Shown: one piece after another, positions 10,712 to 16,460 of the stretch
How positions within the stretch are numbered: the stretch's first letter is position 1
Layout: every line of letters begins with the position of its first letter
DNA from: Haloterrigena sp. KLK7
Lineage (GTDB): Archaea; Halobacteriota; Halobacteria; Halobacteriales; Natrialbaceae
Assembly (NCBI RefSeq): GCF_037914945.1
Contig: NZ_CP149787.1
Location: forward strand, 1,736,001 to 1,800,000
Direction of reading: 5' to 3'
DNA length: 64,000 bases
The notes under the pieces: generated by a model
Databases searched by the model: none
What the model was told of the DNA's origin: nothing
What the model saw: only the letters and a program-made list of their open reading frames with translations
Made by a program: the position numbers and the translations under genes

Positions 10712-12427
10712 TCACTCGCCGCTCGAGGTCTTCTCGTCCGTCCGATCGCCCTCGAGCGCCGTCTCATCCCGTTCGTCGGGATCCCCATGTCCGCCGCCGC
10801 CGGGCGTCCGAACGGTCACGGTCGTCCCGGCGTCGACGTCGACGGTCGTCTTCGCGGAGACGGGCTCTCCGTCGATCAGGTTCTCGCCGGTCGCACCGCT
10901 CTCGCCGCCGGCGACGCCCTTCGGCGCGTGGCGCCGGCGCTCGGTCAGCAGCGACACCGTCGCCGGCGTCTCGACGGTGACGGTTCGCTCGAGGCCGAGT
11001 CCGCCGCGGAATCGCCCGCGGCCGCCGCTATCGGGTCGGAACGCGTAGCGCTCGACCCGGAGCGGGTATTCCGTCTCGAGGGACTCGACGGGCGTGTTCA
11101 GCGTGTTGGTCATGCCGACCTGGACGCCGTCCATCCCGTCGCGGTCCGCTCGAGCGCCGAAGCCGCCGCCGATGGTCTCGTAGTAGGTGAACGACCCGTC
11201 CCGCGCGCCGATGGTGAGGTTGTTCATCGTCCCCTGGCCCTGCGCGGGCACGCGGTCGGGGACGGCCTCGGCGAGCGCGGTGAAGACCACGTCGGTCACG
11301 CGCTGGCTGGTCTCGACGTTGCCGCCGACCACGGCCGCGGGCGGCTCCGGATTCAGCAGCGAGCCCTCGGGCGCGTGCACGCTGACGGGCTCGTAACAGC
11401 CGTGATTCGGCGGGATCTCGGGGTCGGTGAGACAGCGCACGACGAAGTAGACCGCGCTCGTCGCGACCGCAAGCGGCGCGTTCAGGTTCCCCTCGAGCTG
11501 GCCGTCGGTTCCCGAGAAGTCGACGTCGACCGTCGCACCGTCGATCGTGACCGCGACCGAGATCTCGACGTCGTCGTCGGTGACGCCGTCGCCCTCGAGG
11601 ACGTCGGTGGCCTCGTAGGTGCCGTCGGGCAGGGCCCGAATCTCGTCTTCGATCCGCTCTCGGGAGTAGTCGATCACGGCGTCGAACCCGGAGCGAACGG
11701 TCTCGCGGCCGTGCTCGTCGAAGAGCGCGGCGAGCCGGTCCTCGGCGCGCTCGTTCGCCGCCCGCTGGGCGCGCAGGTCGGCCCGGCGCTCGCGGGCGTT
11801 GCGGACGTTCGCGAGCACGAGCGAGCGGACGTCTTCCCGGGGCTCGCCGCCCTCGACGATCCGCGTCGGCGGGAGGCGGAGCCCCTCCTGGTAGATCTCC
11901 CGGGCGCCCGCGGGCATGCTGCCGGGAGTCATTCCCCCGACGTCCGCGTGATGGGCGCGGGAGACGGCGTAGCCGACGATCTCGCGGTCGTCCCCGCGTT
12001 CGCCGCCGTCGTCTCGACTCTCGCCGCCCGCCGTTTCGGGTGCAATCGGCGAGACCATCGTCACGTCAGGCAGGTGCGTCCCGCCCCGGAACGGGTCGTT
12101 GAGGACGAACACGTCGCCGGGTCGCGGGTCGTACTCGAGGACGGCGTCGACGGCCGCGGGCATCGCGCCCAGGTGAACCGGGATGTGCTCGGCCTGGGCG
12201 ATCATCCGGCCCTCGGCGTCGAACAGGGCGGTCGAGCAGTCCCGGCGCTCCTTGATGTTCGGCGAGTAGGCGCCGCGGATCAGCGTCTGTCCCATCTCCT
12301 CGGCGACGCTTTCGAGCTGGTTGCGCAGCACCTCGAGGGTCACCGGATCGATTCCCTCGGCGTCCGTCGCGTTCGGTTCGTCCGGTTCGGTCGTCGCGTC
12401 CGCGGTCTCGTTCGGATCTGGCGTCAT
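10712..12427 (-). CDS. hyuB: Hydantoinase/oxoprolinase subunit B
   Basis: A 571-residue HyuB-type protein. Diagnostic segments are [20 protein letters not shown] near residue 25, the following [20 protein letters not shown], and the near-C-terminal [20 protein letters not shown]. The family forms heteromers with HyuA and cleaves cyclic amides such as hydantoins or 5-oxoproline using ATP; the substrate is not readable. Its ATG overlaps the TGA of hyuA (ATGA), so both subunits are made by coupled translation. The C-terminal 45 residues are acidic and variable. Confidence 0.92.
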
Positions 12428-14553
12428 TCGGAATCACCCCCTCGCGTCATGACGAGGGTTCCGTCCGCGAGGATCTCGCCCGCCCAGGTCGGCGGGACGA
12501 CGGTCGTGCTCTCGGCCTGCTCGAGGATCGCCGGGCCGGAGACCGTCGCGCCGGCCTCGAGGCGGTCTCGGTCGTACACGGTCGTCTCGCGCGGCTCGGT
12601 CCCCGCGCCGGGGAAGTGAGCGTCTCGCGTTCCGACGAGCGCGTCGCCGGGGCCCTCGTGGCGGACGGTCGGCTCCGACCCCGGAACCGTCGCCGTCGCG
12701 CGGAGGTTGACGACCTCGATCGACTCGTCCAGCGCGTAGCCGTAGGCGCGCTCGTGGGCCTCGTGGAACCGTCGCTCGACCGCGTCCGCGTCGAACTCGT
12801 CGTCAGCTGACACCGTCAGCTCGAAGCTCTGGCCCGCGTACCGGCAGTCAGCGGCCAGTTCGACTCGCGCCGCGTCCGGATCGGAGGCGTCGGCCAGCAC
12901 GTCCGCGACGAGGTCGTCGTAGACGGCCTCGGTCTCCGTCGCGTCGGCCGTCTCGAGGTCGACGCCGACCGTCCGCACGGCGTCGTAGCTCTCGTCGGCC
13001 GCCAACAGGCCGAACGCCGAGAGGACGCCGCCCGGTCGCGGGACGACGACGCGGTCGACCTCGAGCGAGTCGGCCAGCGCGGCGGCGTGCATCGGACCCG
13101 CGCCGCCGAAGGCCACCAGCGCGAACTCGCGGGGGTCGTGGCCGCGCTCGACCGTCACCGAGCGGATCGTCCGGGTCATCGTCGCGTTCGCCACGCGGTA
13201 GACGCCGCGTGCGGCCTCGAGCGCGCCGTCCAGTCCGGCCTCGTCGGCCAGGCGCTCGAGCGCGTCGCGGGCCGCTTCGACGTCGAGGGTCATCTCGCCG
13301 CCCAGCGCGGTCTCGGGGCCGATGTAGCCGAGCACGACGTTGGCGTCGGTGACGGTGGGTTCGGTGCCGCCGCGACCGTAGCAGGCGGGACCGGGGTCGG
13401 CACCCGACGACTTCGGGCCGACGCGGAGCGCCCCGCCGGCGTCGACCCAGGCGATCGAGCCGCCGCCGGCACCGACGGTGTTCACGTCGACCATCGGCGT
13501 CCGGATCGGCAGTCCGTCGATCTCGGCGTCGGTCGTCCGCTCGGCTTGCCCGTCTCGGACGAGGCTCACGTCGCTCGAGGTGCCGCCCATGTCGAAGGTG
13601 ACGAGCCCCTCGACGTCCGCGTCGTCGACGGTCGCCGCGGCGCCGACGACGCCCGCGGCCGGCCCCGATAGGGTCGTCGTCACGGCGTGCTCGCGGACCG
13701 TCTCGGGGTCGGCGATGCCGCCGTTGGCCTGCATGATCCGCGGCGCCGGCACGCCCGCCGCTTCGGCTTCCTCGACTAGCCGGCCAACGTAGCGGTCGAT
13801 CGCGGGTCGCACGTAGGCGTCGACGGCCGTCGTCGACGTCCGCTCGAACTCGCGGAACTCTGCAAGCACCTCGTGGGACGCGGAGACCGGCACGTCGAGC
13901 TCCTCGCGCAGGATCTCGGCGACGCGCTCCTCGTTCTCGGGGTCGGCGTAGGCGTGCAGCAGCGAGACCGCGACGGCTTCGACGTCCGACTCGCGCAGCG
14001 TCGCCGCGAGGTCTCGGATCTCGTCGGGGTCGACGGGCTCCTCGACGCCGTCGGCCGTCGTCCGCTCGCTCACCTCGAAGCGCCGTTCGCGCGGGACGAG
14101 CGGTTCGGGTTTCTCGGCCTCGAGGTCGTACAAGTCGGGGCGGTCCTGCCGGCCGATCTCGAGGACGTCGCGGAAGCCCTCGGTCGTGACGAGCGCCGTC
14201 TCCGCGCCGCCGCGCTCGAGCAGCGCGTTGACGGAGACGGTCATCGCGTGGGCGAACTCGTCGATCTCACCGGGATCGATCCCCGCGTCGTCGCAGGCCT
14301 TGCGAAGGCCCTCGAGGACGCCCAGGTGTTGCGGGTCGGTCGAGGGCACCTTCGCGGTGACGAGGTCGTCGTCGACGGAGAGCGCGACGTCGGTGAAGGT
14401 GCCGCCGACGTCGACACCGATTCGGACGTCGGTCCCGTCGCTCGAGGCGGGCGAGCCGCCGTCGGTGCGGAGCGCGCGGTCGTTCGCCGATTCGGTTCGC
14501 GTCGCGTCGGACGCGTTCGCGTCTGTTGTCGTGTGCGTGTTTGTATCCGTCAT
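12424..14553 (-). CDS. hyuA: Hydantoinase/oxoprolinase subunit A
   Basis: A 709-residue HyuA-type subunit. After about 45 low-complexity residues comes the ASKHA-fold phosphate loop VRIGVDVGGTFTDVAL. Further conserved segments are ERGGAETALVTTEGFRDVLE, DMGGTSSDVSLVRDG, and ALVAFGGAGPMHA. This subunit binds ATP and activates the amide. The gene starts four bases after the stop of the NRAMP-like gene and overlaps hyuB, so transporter, A and B form one transcription unit. The N-terminal Thr/Asp-rich stretch might be removed if translation starts at a later codon, but no other ATG precedes the P-loop. Confidence 0.93.
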   Translation of the reverse strand: MTDTNTHTTTDANASDATRTESANDRALRTDGGSPASSDGTDVRIGVDVGGTFTDVALSVDDDLVTAKVPSTDPQHLGVLEGLRKACDDAGIDPGEIDEFAHAMTVSVNALLERGGAETALVTTEGFRDVLEIGRQDRPDLYDLEAEKPEPLVPRERRFEVSERTTADGVEEPVDPDEIRDLAATLRESDVEAVAVSLLHAYADPENEERVAEILREELDVPVSASHEVLAEFREFERTSTTAVDAYVRPAIDRYVGRLVEEAEAAGVPAPRIMQANGGIADPETVREHAVTTTLSGPAAGVVGAAATVDDADVEGLVTFDMGGTSSDVSLVRDGQAERTTDAEIDGLPIRTPMVDVNTVGAGGGSIAWVDAGGALRVGPKSSGADPGPACYGRGGTEPTVTDANVVLGYIGPETALGGEMTLDVEAARDALERLADEAGLDGALEAARGVYRVANATMTRTIRSVTVERGHDPREFALVAFGGAGPMHAAALADSLEVDRVVVPRPGGVLSAFGLLAADESYDAVRTVGVDLETADATETEAVYDDLVADVLADASDPDAARVELAADCRYAGQSFELTVSADDEFDADAVERRFHEAHERAYGYALDESIEVVNLRATATVPGSEPTVRHEGPGDALVGTRDAHFPGAGTEPRETTVYDRDRLEAGATVSGPAILEQAESTTVVPPTWAGEILADGTLVMTRGGDSE

Positions 14554-14557
14554 TCGA

Positions 14558-15763
14558 TTAGAGGAGCAAGACGTCGTAGAGCGTTCGAAGACCGATACCG
14601 ATCACGACCAGCGTGACGAGTCCGCCCAGCACGTTCTGGAGGGTGCTGTTCGTGTACTCGCCGAGCAGGTCGTCGTTGTTCATCGCGTAGATGAGGAAGA
14701 CCGCGAGGATAGGCAGCAGGAGGCCGTTGGCGACCTGCGCGAAGACGATGACCTCGACGGGGTTGTAGTCCAGCGCCGAGAAGACGATACCGACGCCGAG
14801 GATCGCCATCCAGATCGCGCGGAACCGGGTCGACTGCAGGTCCCGTTCCCAGCCCAGCGCGCCGGCGGTGGCGTAGGCGCCGGCCAGCGGCGCGCTCATC
14901 GAACTCGTGAAACCGGCCGCGAAGAGGCCGATCGCGAAGAACGTCAGCGCGTAGCCGCCGAAGACGGGCTCGAGTTGGTCGGCCATCTCGCCGACGTCGC
15001 TGATCTGGGTTCCCTCGGGGAACACCGCGGCCGCGGTGACGACGATCGCCGTCGTGATGACGCCGCCGACGATGACCATCGCGATCGTGTCCGTGCGACA
15101 CTCCGCGAGGTCCGCGGCACCGTCCCACCGCTCCTGGACCGTGCTCGCGTGCAGGAACAGGTTGTAACCGACGACGGTGGTTCCGACGAGTCCGGCGATC
15201 AGGTACGCCGACCCGTCGGGAACCGTCGGCACGAGGCCGCTCCCGAGCGCGGTGAGATCGGGCCGGACCATGACGGCGTTGAGTACGAACGCCAACCCCA
15301 TGACCGTGACGAGGCCGATGAAGACCCGCTCGATCAGTTCGTAGCTGCCCGTCCACAGCAGCCCGGCGGCGACCAGTCCCATGATCGGCCCCCAGACGTT
15401 CTCGCTGACGCCCGTGATCGTCGCCAGTCCGGCGGCGCCGCCGACGATGTTCCCGGTCTGGAACGCCGCCGTGCCGATCCCGATCGCGCTCACGACGAGC
15501 GTGATCGTCACGCCCCTCGCGAACGGGTTCGAGAACTCGTTTCGAAACGCTTCCCCCAGTCCCTCGTTCGTGATCAGGCCGAGTCGCGCGCTCATCTCCT
15601 GGAGGACGATCGTCGCCAGAATCGAGAACGCGATCGTCCACACGAGCAGGTACGCGTACTCCGCGCCGATCACGCTCGCCGTCGTGACGGTTCCCGGACC
15701 GACGAACGCCGCCGCAACCAGCGCCCCCGGGCCGATCGCCTTCAGTCGGTCAGCAATACCCAT
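14558..15763 (-). CDS. NRAMP-fold transporter lacking the canonical metal-binding motifs
   Basis: A 401-residue protein with about eleven hydrophobic helices and clear NRAMP/SLC11 similarity: GPGALVAAAFVGPGTVTTAS in helix 1, and GLVGTTVVGYNLFLHASTVQ in helix 6. In true metal transporters these read DPGN and MPH(N). Here the helix-1 Asp is Gly22 and the Asn is Thr25; the helix-6 Met is Val198, with Pro and His replaced by Gly and Tyr. The metal site is therefore absent. Located immediately before hyuA-hyuB, it more likely imports an organic substrate of those enzymes. The relatives near bacterial 5-oxoprolinase genes (for example B. subtilis ycsG) are a precedent. ATG 15763 is preferred over ATG 15826, which would add an unconserved tail. 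Confidence 0.9.
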   Translation of the reverse strand: MGIADRLKAIGPGALVAAAFVGPGTVTTASVIGAEYAYLLVWTIAFSILATIVLQEMSARLGLITNEGLGEAFRNEFSNPFARGVTITLVVSAIGIGTAAFQTGNIVGGAAGLATITGVSENVWGPIMGLVAAGLLWTGSYELIERVFIGLVTVMGLAFVLNAVMVRPDLTALGSGLVPTVPDGSAYLIAGLVGTTVVGYNLFLHASTVQERWDGAADLAECRTDTIAMVIVGGVITTAIVVTAAAVFPEGTQISDVGEMADQLEPVFGGYALTFFAIGLFAAGFTSSMSAPLAGAYATAGALGWERDLQSTRFRAIWMAILGVGIVFSALDYNPVEVIVFAQVANGLLLPILAVFLIYAMNNDDLLGEYTNSTLQNVLGGLVTLVVIGIGLRTLYDVLLL

Positions 15764-15765
15764 GA

Positions 15766-15781
15766 TGTGTGTCCACACACA
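15766..15781. promoter_or_regulatory. Inverted repeat just upstream of the NRAMP-like gene
   Basis: TGTGTGTCCACACACA has perfect 7-base arms around CC and ends two bases before the ATG at 15763. A TATA-like run (minus strand CTTAAC, 15810-15815) lies about 50 bases upstream of the ATG, so the repeat would fall between the transcription start and the start codon. It could be an operator for the ribbon-helix-helix protein encoded next door or a short RNA hairpin covering the start. Confidence 0.5.
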
Positions 15782-15917
15782 GTCTTCGGTGAAACGAGCA
15801 AAAGGATTGTTAAGAACCGAACACACGACGGGTCGCGTCGCTCGAGCGAGAACGGACCGCGTATGAAGACGTATGAACTCGTATGACTATCCGTAGTCGG
15901 TGAGTATCGAGCTCGAG

Positions 15918-16460
15918 TCAGTCCGGTCGCTCGGTGACGATCACCTTCGAGACGCCCCGATCGATTTCGATCTCCGTCGGCATGTCGACGGTGCTGCGTT
16001 CGATGAACCGGGTCATGAACCACCGAATGGCCTCCGACGGGAAGACGATGTGGTAGACGTCGCCCTCCTCGCGGCGTACCTCGAGGAACCCACAGAAGGA
16101 GAGCCACTCGAGCACCTCGCCGACGTTCTCGAACCGCTGGGCGTACTCGCGGGCGTGGTAGTCGGAGACCCGATCGGCCGCCGCGACGAACTCCGGATCG
16201 GGGTCGCCGCCGTCGTAGCAGTGCTCGAGGAAGGCGTGTAGAAAGTCGATGTCCAGCAGGACGTGCTCGCCGGAGGTCAGCATCCGGTAGTACTGCTCTA
16301 AGTTGTCGCTGGGCCGGCCGCTGGCCGCTTCGAAGTTCGCTGCGTAGAACGTCAGCGCCCGGCGAACGAGCTCGCTCTGTCCGTGATTGGTCTCGGACAG
16401 CAGCGCCTCGAGGGCCGTATGCGAGTCCTCGTCGAGCGACACCGTGACGCGTTCGGTCAT
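15918..16460 (-). CDS. Ribbon-helix-helix transcriptional regulator
   Basis: A 180-residue protein. Residues 1-45 form a CopG/Arc-type ribbon-helix-helix domain: beta strand TERVTVSLDED, then helix HTALEALLS and helix QSELVRRALTFYAANF. The remaining 135 residues are helical and acidic and carry no motif I recognise; they may sense a ligand or another protein. It is encoded 154 bases upstream of the NRAMP-like gene on the same strand, so it is a reasonable local regulator of the transporter-hyuAB unit or of itself. ATG 16460 begins exactly at the expected RHH strand; the longer frame upstream has no domain character. Confidence 0.85.
   Translation of the reverse strand: MTERVTVSLDEDSHTALEALLSETNHGQSELVRRALTFYAANFEAASGRPSDNLEQYYRMLTSGEHVLLDIDFLHAFLEHCYDGGDPDPEFVAAADRVSDYHAREYAQRFENVGEVLEWLSFCGFLEVRREEGDVYHIVFPSEAIRWFMTRFIERSTVDMPTEIEIDRGVSKVIVTERPD

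Follow-up and report, generated by a model that had tools for sequence, protein, structure and literature searches.

What does a protein of the Nramp fold carry when the residues of its metal site have been replaced and its gene lies in one operon with those of a cyclic-amide hydrolase? The question is raised by a locus of the archaeon Haloterrigena sp. KLK7 (contig NZ_CP149787.1, positions 1,736,001 to 1,800,000; this whole stretch of 64,000 nucleotides is called the window), where the minus strand encodes, in this order, a ribbon-helix-helix (RHH) regulator, an Nramp-fold transporter (NRAMP), and the hydrolase subunits HyuA and HyuB. The system is real, conserved, and functionally coherent. 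Comparison with related sequences indicates that the operon is probably a regulated uptake-and-use cassette for 5-oxoproline (pyroglutamate), whose transporter would import this compound and not a metal. The transporter would most likely represent a second Nramp-related family of 5-oxoproline importers, phylogenetically distinct from, and analogous to, the Nramp-related PxpT of Corynebacterium glutamicum, which is required for growth on 5-oxoproline (PMC13274462).

The four genes are closely arranged. The NRAMP open reading frame begins with the ATG at 15763 and ends with the stop at 14558-14560; four bases separate it from the ATG of hyuA (14553), which in turn overlaps hyuB by 4 bp; the RHH frame is codirectional and lies 154 bp upstream of NRAMP. 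An earlier reading of the window made from sequence alone (the sequence-only reading) had described both junctions in this way and had pointed to the adjoining RHH regulator, whose frame is now located (15918-16460) and whose match to PF01402 lies above the cut-off.

The transporter matches the Pfam Nramp family PF01566 with 328 bits (cut-off 29.8) and receives by score the NCBIfam name 'Nramp family divalent metal transporter' (106 bits, cut-off 50), while falling far under the cut-offs of the MntH and nramp subfamilies. The canonical SLC11/Nramp signatures, DPGN in transmembrane helix (TM) 1 and MPH in TM6, are not present in it; their places are taken by GPGT and V198-G199-Y200 (the latter within the stretch TTVVGY), substitutions that the sequence-only reading had given correctly to the residue (Gly22, Thr25; Val198-Tyr200). 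Aligned to DraNramp, the metal-site residues D56, N59, M230, and H232 correspond to G22, T25, V198, and Y200, and E124 and E134 of the canonical proton pathway to V90 and N105. GPGT and V[VI][GS]Y are near-invariant among the haloarchaeal orthologues. By structure, the AlphaFold model (mean pLDDT 75, the five models varying widely in confidence) is most similar to EleNRMT (TM-score 0.84), with DraNramp and BfraNramp also at about 0.8 and the amino-acid carriers LAT1, ApcT, and AdiC following; in it TM1 is interrupted at GPGT, TM6 is shown without a break, and the fold is given without usable detail of the pocket. The four other Nramp-family genes of the same genome also lack DPGN and MPH (their motifs include GPAT with VHITLL and GAGS with VYWPNFF), so that the genome is without a canonical Nramp; related haloarchaea have at least two further subfamilies of this kind, and some species have canonical ones. 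Loss of the motifs alone proves nothing about a non-metal role, because YcsG (MntG) of Bacillus subtilis is reported as a Mn importer: cells overproducing it contain more Mn, and its promoter is bound by MntR (PMC10448178).

The substrate is suggested above all by the partners of the bacterial relatives. Downstream of the gene for a Balneola relative (44% identity; motifs GPGT and VVPY) come PxpA and then a fused PxpB-PxpC-type protein. In a survey of the class to which this genome belongs (245 genomes), pxpA lies directly downstream of NRAMP in 29 of the best 30 loci, with a PxpB/PxpC match after it wherever the stretch extends far enough; at one locus NRAMP, pxpA, pxpB, and pxpC follow one another with their ends overlapping, PxpA scoring 322 bits (cut-off 226) and PxpB 150 bits (cut-off 145.6). 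A second subgroup, recognised by VVPYN[LI]FLGS, has OPLAH-type hyuA and hyuB nearby, split or fused, in 19 of 24 loci (some of the other five are near a contig end), and at least nine of these hyu-linked loci carry hyuAB as a single frame of about 1260-1320 residues.

In a maximum-likelihood tree, the window protein and all bacterial subgroups form one clade (support 97/95), separate from the canonical Nramps (100/99) and from the PxpT-type proteins of pxp operons (100/100, branch of about 4). Nested in the pxp-linked branch (100/98) is the protein of one genome, G217, which nevertheless has no PxpA; its sole HyuA is a 1281-residue fused HyuAB frame adjoining NRAMP. By this sequence comparison, PxpABC is swapped for fused HyuAB in G217. 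In a sample of 17 bacterial genomes with NRAMP, PxpA occurs without HyuA in three and HyuA without PxpA in 14. The PxpABC and HyuAB/OPLAH kinds are unrelated in sequence (PMC8453981). Because these two enzyme systems share one known reaction, the ATP-dependent opening of 5-oxoproline, the linkage to both and the swap of one for the other constitute the strongest argument that this is the substrate. The sequence-only reading had proposed that a cyclic amide, and not a metal, is imported by a carrier coupled to the matching hydrolase; that proposal is strengthened, its choice of hydantoin, oxoproline, or a similar amide narrowing to 5-oxoproline. Its further suggestion of an undescribed transporter class in archaea does not hold, since the same clade is common in Balneola-class bacteria with either pxpABC or hyuAB.

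Among 195 Halobacteriales genomes, one per species, 59 have an orthologue of the transporter (about 55-100% identity, other Nramp-family genes being at about 30%). The gene order, on whose conservation beyond this genome the sequence-only reading had made its proposal depend, is widely kept: hyuA is directly downstream of NRAMP in 57 of the 59 (25 genera, 9 families; three of the loci so scored are interrupted or divided by a frameshift or a contig end), and the full order RHH-NRAMP-hyuA-hyuB is found in most genomes having the orthologue, so that the arrangement is no accident. Haloferax mediterranei, whose orthologue of the transporter is E6P09_RS16855, and Haloarcula marismortui have the cassette on megaplasmids. 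There are two exceptions. Natrononativus retains RHH and NRAMP without a HyuA orthologue and has PxpA; another genome has a lone divergent NRAMP (55%) without RHH, with HyuAB elsewhere in the genome. The latter NRAMP lies near arginase-family, creatininase-family, and AsnC-type genes.

HyuA orthologues are commoner than NRAMP (125 of 194 genomes). At seven Natrialbaceae-type loci without the transporter, hyuAB keeps its phosphoesterase and cofE neighbours and both RHH and NRAMP are missing; because synteny thus persists without the two genes, RHH and NRAMP form an optional module, gained by or lost from a wider hyuAB. A replacement transporter beside hyuAB was searched for at the NRAMP-less loci and none was consistently found.

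PxpA, present in 30 of 194 haloarchaeal genomes, is found in 21 of the 59 that have NRAMP and in 9 of the 135 that do not (Fisher p 1.2e-6); this association holds under permutation within families (5e-5) and within genera (0.023), and after adjustment for genome size (p 8e-4). HyuA and PxpA show no association in haloarchaea (p 0.15), and their mutual exclusion is rejected there, unlike in the bacterial sample. The window genome has no PxpA, its transporter operon holding hyuAB and not pxpABC, and at none of the 15 haloarchaeal pxpA loci examined is an NRAMP of the window clade adjacent; one importer could feed both enzymes in these organisms. The conserved gene order, the co-occurrence of PxpA with NRAMP, the combination in Natrononativus, the replaced metal-site and proton-pathway residues, and the precedent of PxpT all speak for 5-oxoproline.

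The enzyme itself is intact by its motifs. HyuA has the Pfam domain Hydantoinase_A with its N and C domains, and HyuB is Hydantoinase_B. The ATP motifs DVGGTFTD, DMGGTSSD, and GADPGP of HyuA are kept in 57/57 aligned orthologues, and D63, H118, D121, and H159 of HyuB align with the metal tetrad of caprolactamase (D41/H99/D102/H124), which has been shown to be essential (PMC8453981). With these domains, motifs, and tetrad the enzyme shares the features of the family that comprises HyuAB, OPLAH, caprolactamase, and N-methylhydantoinase. Assignment to one of these from sequence was tried and favoured no one substrate: N-methylhydantoinase (503/250 bits) and caprolactamase (394/202 bits) come closest among solved structures, the caprolactamase family models score 524 and 272 bits, below their cut-off of 1000, and identity is similar to split, fused, and characterised relatives having other substrates. 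Split hyuAB genes about 30-45% identical to those of the window are also found at two loci on Ti plasmids; one adjoins octopine/nopaline transport and nopaline dehydrogenase genes, and these enzymes might open opine lactams.

Several points weigh against 5-oxoproline. The substrate case rests, for every member of the clade, on sequence comparison, and HyuAB does not pick out this compound. A third bacterial subgroup (GPGTVLTC, VVAY; 14 loci) is linked to neither pxp nor hyu genes, a negative from within the family, so that not all members of the clade need share the substrate; several loci of this subgroup have SHMT-like and TatC-like genes nearby. PxpA and HyuA are found together in many haloarchaea. 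Finally, both PxpA and HyuB are metal enzymes or thought to be so, and their linkage to the transporter could reflect metal supply.

Of the alternatives that these points open, one is that the haloarchaeal protein takes up some other cyclic amide that HyuAB can open, for instance N-methylhydantoin, a 5-substituted hydantoin, or a lactam other than 5-oxoproline, which would then be reserved for its PxpABC-linked relatives. This is rather unlikely. The nearest solved relatives of HyuAB and the hyuAB genes of similar identity on Ti plasmids, one set beside opine catabolism genes, would suit it, and the TM6 motif VGY in haloarchaea, as against VPY in pxp-linked bacteria, could mark a change of substrate; but bacterial VPY members occur with both enzyme kinds, one swap lies inside the pxp-linked branch, and the haloarchaeal NRAMP tracks PxpA.

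It is very unlikely that the protein has kept the import of a divalent metal (Mn, Fe, Zn, or Mg) and supplies HyuB or PxpA with it. A metal tetrad is conserved in HyuB, PxpA is described as probably metal-dependent (PMC8453981), the Mn accumulation and MntR control reported for YcsG concern a relative of PxpT, and EleNRMT moves Mg without canonical DPGN and MPH (PMC12873925). Across the haloarchaeal clade, however, all four side-chain metal ligands are G, T, V, and Y; haloarchaea own separate Nramps with canonical DPGN and MPH; many genomes have hyuAB without the transporter, which is thus not needed to load the enzyme; and no metal-type regulator lies at the locus. Export of 5-oxoproline or another product is extremely improbable: cells rich in glutamate do form 5-oxoproline spontaneously (PMC13274462), and in many genomes hyuAB manages without the transporter, but characterised Nramp-fold proteins import, the PxpT precedent is one of uptake (PMC13274462), and co-transcription with a degrading enzyme suits nutrient use.

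The predicted 5-oxoproline cassette would work as follows. The transporter would be an Nramp-fold carrier that no longer has the transition-metal site or the canonical residues of the proton pathway, and in which the unwound, glycine-rich TM1 (GPGT) and the tyrosine of TM6 would bind a small carboxylate-bearing lactam for import. In APC-type amino-acid carriers, a glycine-rich unwound TM1 holds the substrate carboxylate; by analogy, the carboxylate of 5-oxoproline may be held at the GPG backbone of TM1, with Y200 lining the lactam. HyuA would then phosphorylate the lactam with ATP, the metal-containing HyuB would hydrolyse the ring to yield glutamate, and the RHH protein, bound to 10-bp direct repeats before the transporter gene, would switch the cassette.

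An RHH gene stands upstream of NRAMP in most orthologous loci. The C-terminal domain of the protein is conserved in alignment, its model shows a weak likeness to H-NOX/TRAPP-like folds (E about 1e-3, TM-score about 0.4), and it is perhaps a small-molecule sensor. The RHH-NRAMP intergenic region contains TTCAYAC direct repeats with 10-bp spacing, spacings of 10 and 20 being dominant; a repeat pair is present in 48 of 70 distinct intergenic sequences, versus a shuffle mean of 0.045, and in 0 of 20 hyuA-only loci. The sole perfect match in the window genome is the RHH-NRAMP site (a single weak second site, at C1:590879, looks fortuitous); of the matches in another 20 genomes, almost every one lies at this locus. 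The repeats are thus a candidate operator, to which the RHH protein may bind; they are kept in one genome without a detected RHH. Downstream of them, a promoter-like element recurs as CTYAACAACCCTTTT across the aligned intergenic sequences. An iteron operator shared with pxpABC was considered and rejected, no such site having been found upstream of pxpABC. Four loci have about 2.7-3.2 kb inserted between RHH and NRAMP; three Natrinema loci with that insertion retain the iterons next to NRAMP. The features of the locus are collected in Table 1.

Table 1. Genes and predicted regulatory elements of the cassette, in window coordinates.
Feature	Position	Strand	Remarks
RHH (CopG-type) regulator gene	15918..16460	minus	180 aa; PF01402 24 bits (cut-off 20.5)
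Candidate operator, three 10-bp direct repeats (G/T)TCATACGNN	15858..15887	minus	repeat pair in 48/70 intergenic sequences
Promoter-like element TTCTTAACAATCCTTTT	15800..15816	minus	downstream of repeats, conserved; putative promoter
Nramp-fold transporter gene	14558..15763	minus	401 aa; predicted 5-oxoproline importer; PF01566, motif alignment, tree, model
hyuA	12424..14553	minus	709 aa; ATP-binding subunit of ATP-dependent cyclic-amide hydrolase; PF05378/PF01968/PF19278
hyuB	10712..12427	minus	571 aa; metal-dependent hydrolytic subunit; PF02538 696 bits

How does the transporter relate to Nramp relatives already in the literature? The absence of DPGN and MPH, noted in the sequence-only reading, had been described before: 'orphan' and NRMT outgroups of Slc11 without these motifs appear in Cellier's account (PMC10606218), and the Nramp-related 'G-motif' groups in another, where all but the EleNRMT and MntG groups are called entirely uncharacterised (PMC12873925). 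EleNRMT, the top structural match, likewise has the Nramp fold without DPGN and MPH, but it has NDAGG in TM1 and APW in TM6 and falls outside the window clade. PxpT and YcsG ('G-motif 3') share with the window protein the Nramp-related fold, with Gly for the metal-binding Asp of TM1 and Tyr for the His of TM6; the PxpT-type clade agrees with it in G at D56, Y at H232, and N at E134 (Asn for Glu in TM3), as well as in operon linkage to a 5-oxoprolinase. PxpT-type proteins differ in having GPGF, GGTVGGY, and GntR-type regulators, where the window clade has GPGT, TTVVGY, an RHH regulator, and hyuAB; linkage to a pxpABC operon is absent at the window locus, yet present in bacterial members of its clade. 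Placement of the window protein in the PxpT/YcsG clade is rejected by two trees, in which the clades are separate and PxpT and YcsG are represented not by themselves but by annotated PxpT-type proteins from plasmid pxp operons. The ycsG comparison of the sequence-only reading is therefore retained as a functional analogy and abandoned as one of clade, since the PxpT-type proteins form a separate, distant one.

Another close counterpart in the literature is the 'orphan' outgroup. Its TM6 changes A to T, M to V, and H to Y correspond to T195, V198, and Y200, and its TM3 changes A-Y and G-N, four residues apart, to F/Y101 and N105, position 101 being F in the window protein and Y in many orthologues; related bacteria share the orphan substitutions (PMC10606218). 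The window protein matches this outgroup at its published substitutions, the comparison being with their description. In the portion of the account available, the outgroup serves as a phylogenetic outgroup only, without substrate, operon, or partner. No paper joining Nramp and hydantoinase was found in the open-access literature, and earlier reports may exist elsewhere; by that literature, the link of the clade to both 5-oxoprolinase kinds in archaea and bacteria and the partner swap are new, as are the optional RHH and NRAMP module and its candidate operator.

It is possible, if still doubtful, that the 'orphan' Nramp outgroup is a 5-oxoproline transporter family independent of PxpT. If it is, the same amino-acid-like lactam would have carriers in two separate Nramp-related clades that do not transport metal, and Nramp metal transport would plausibly have arisen from a LeuT/APC-kind carrier of small organic acids. 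Across genomes, members of PF01566 go under the name of divalent metal transporters, as do all the listed plasmid-borne haloarchaeal orthologues. If the window clade does import 5-oxoproline, many genes of archaea and bacteria bear a wrong name, a transport function would be at hand for an Nramp-related group described as uncharacterised, the evolution of the metal site in the LeuT fold would become testable across carriers with GPGT-VPY, GPGT-VGY, GPGF-GGY, and DPGN-MPH, and haloarchaea would have a pyroglutamate uptake route together with a candidate switch to control it.

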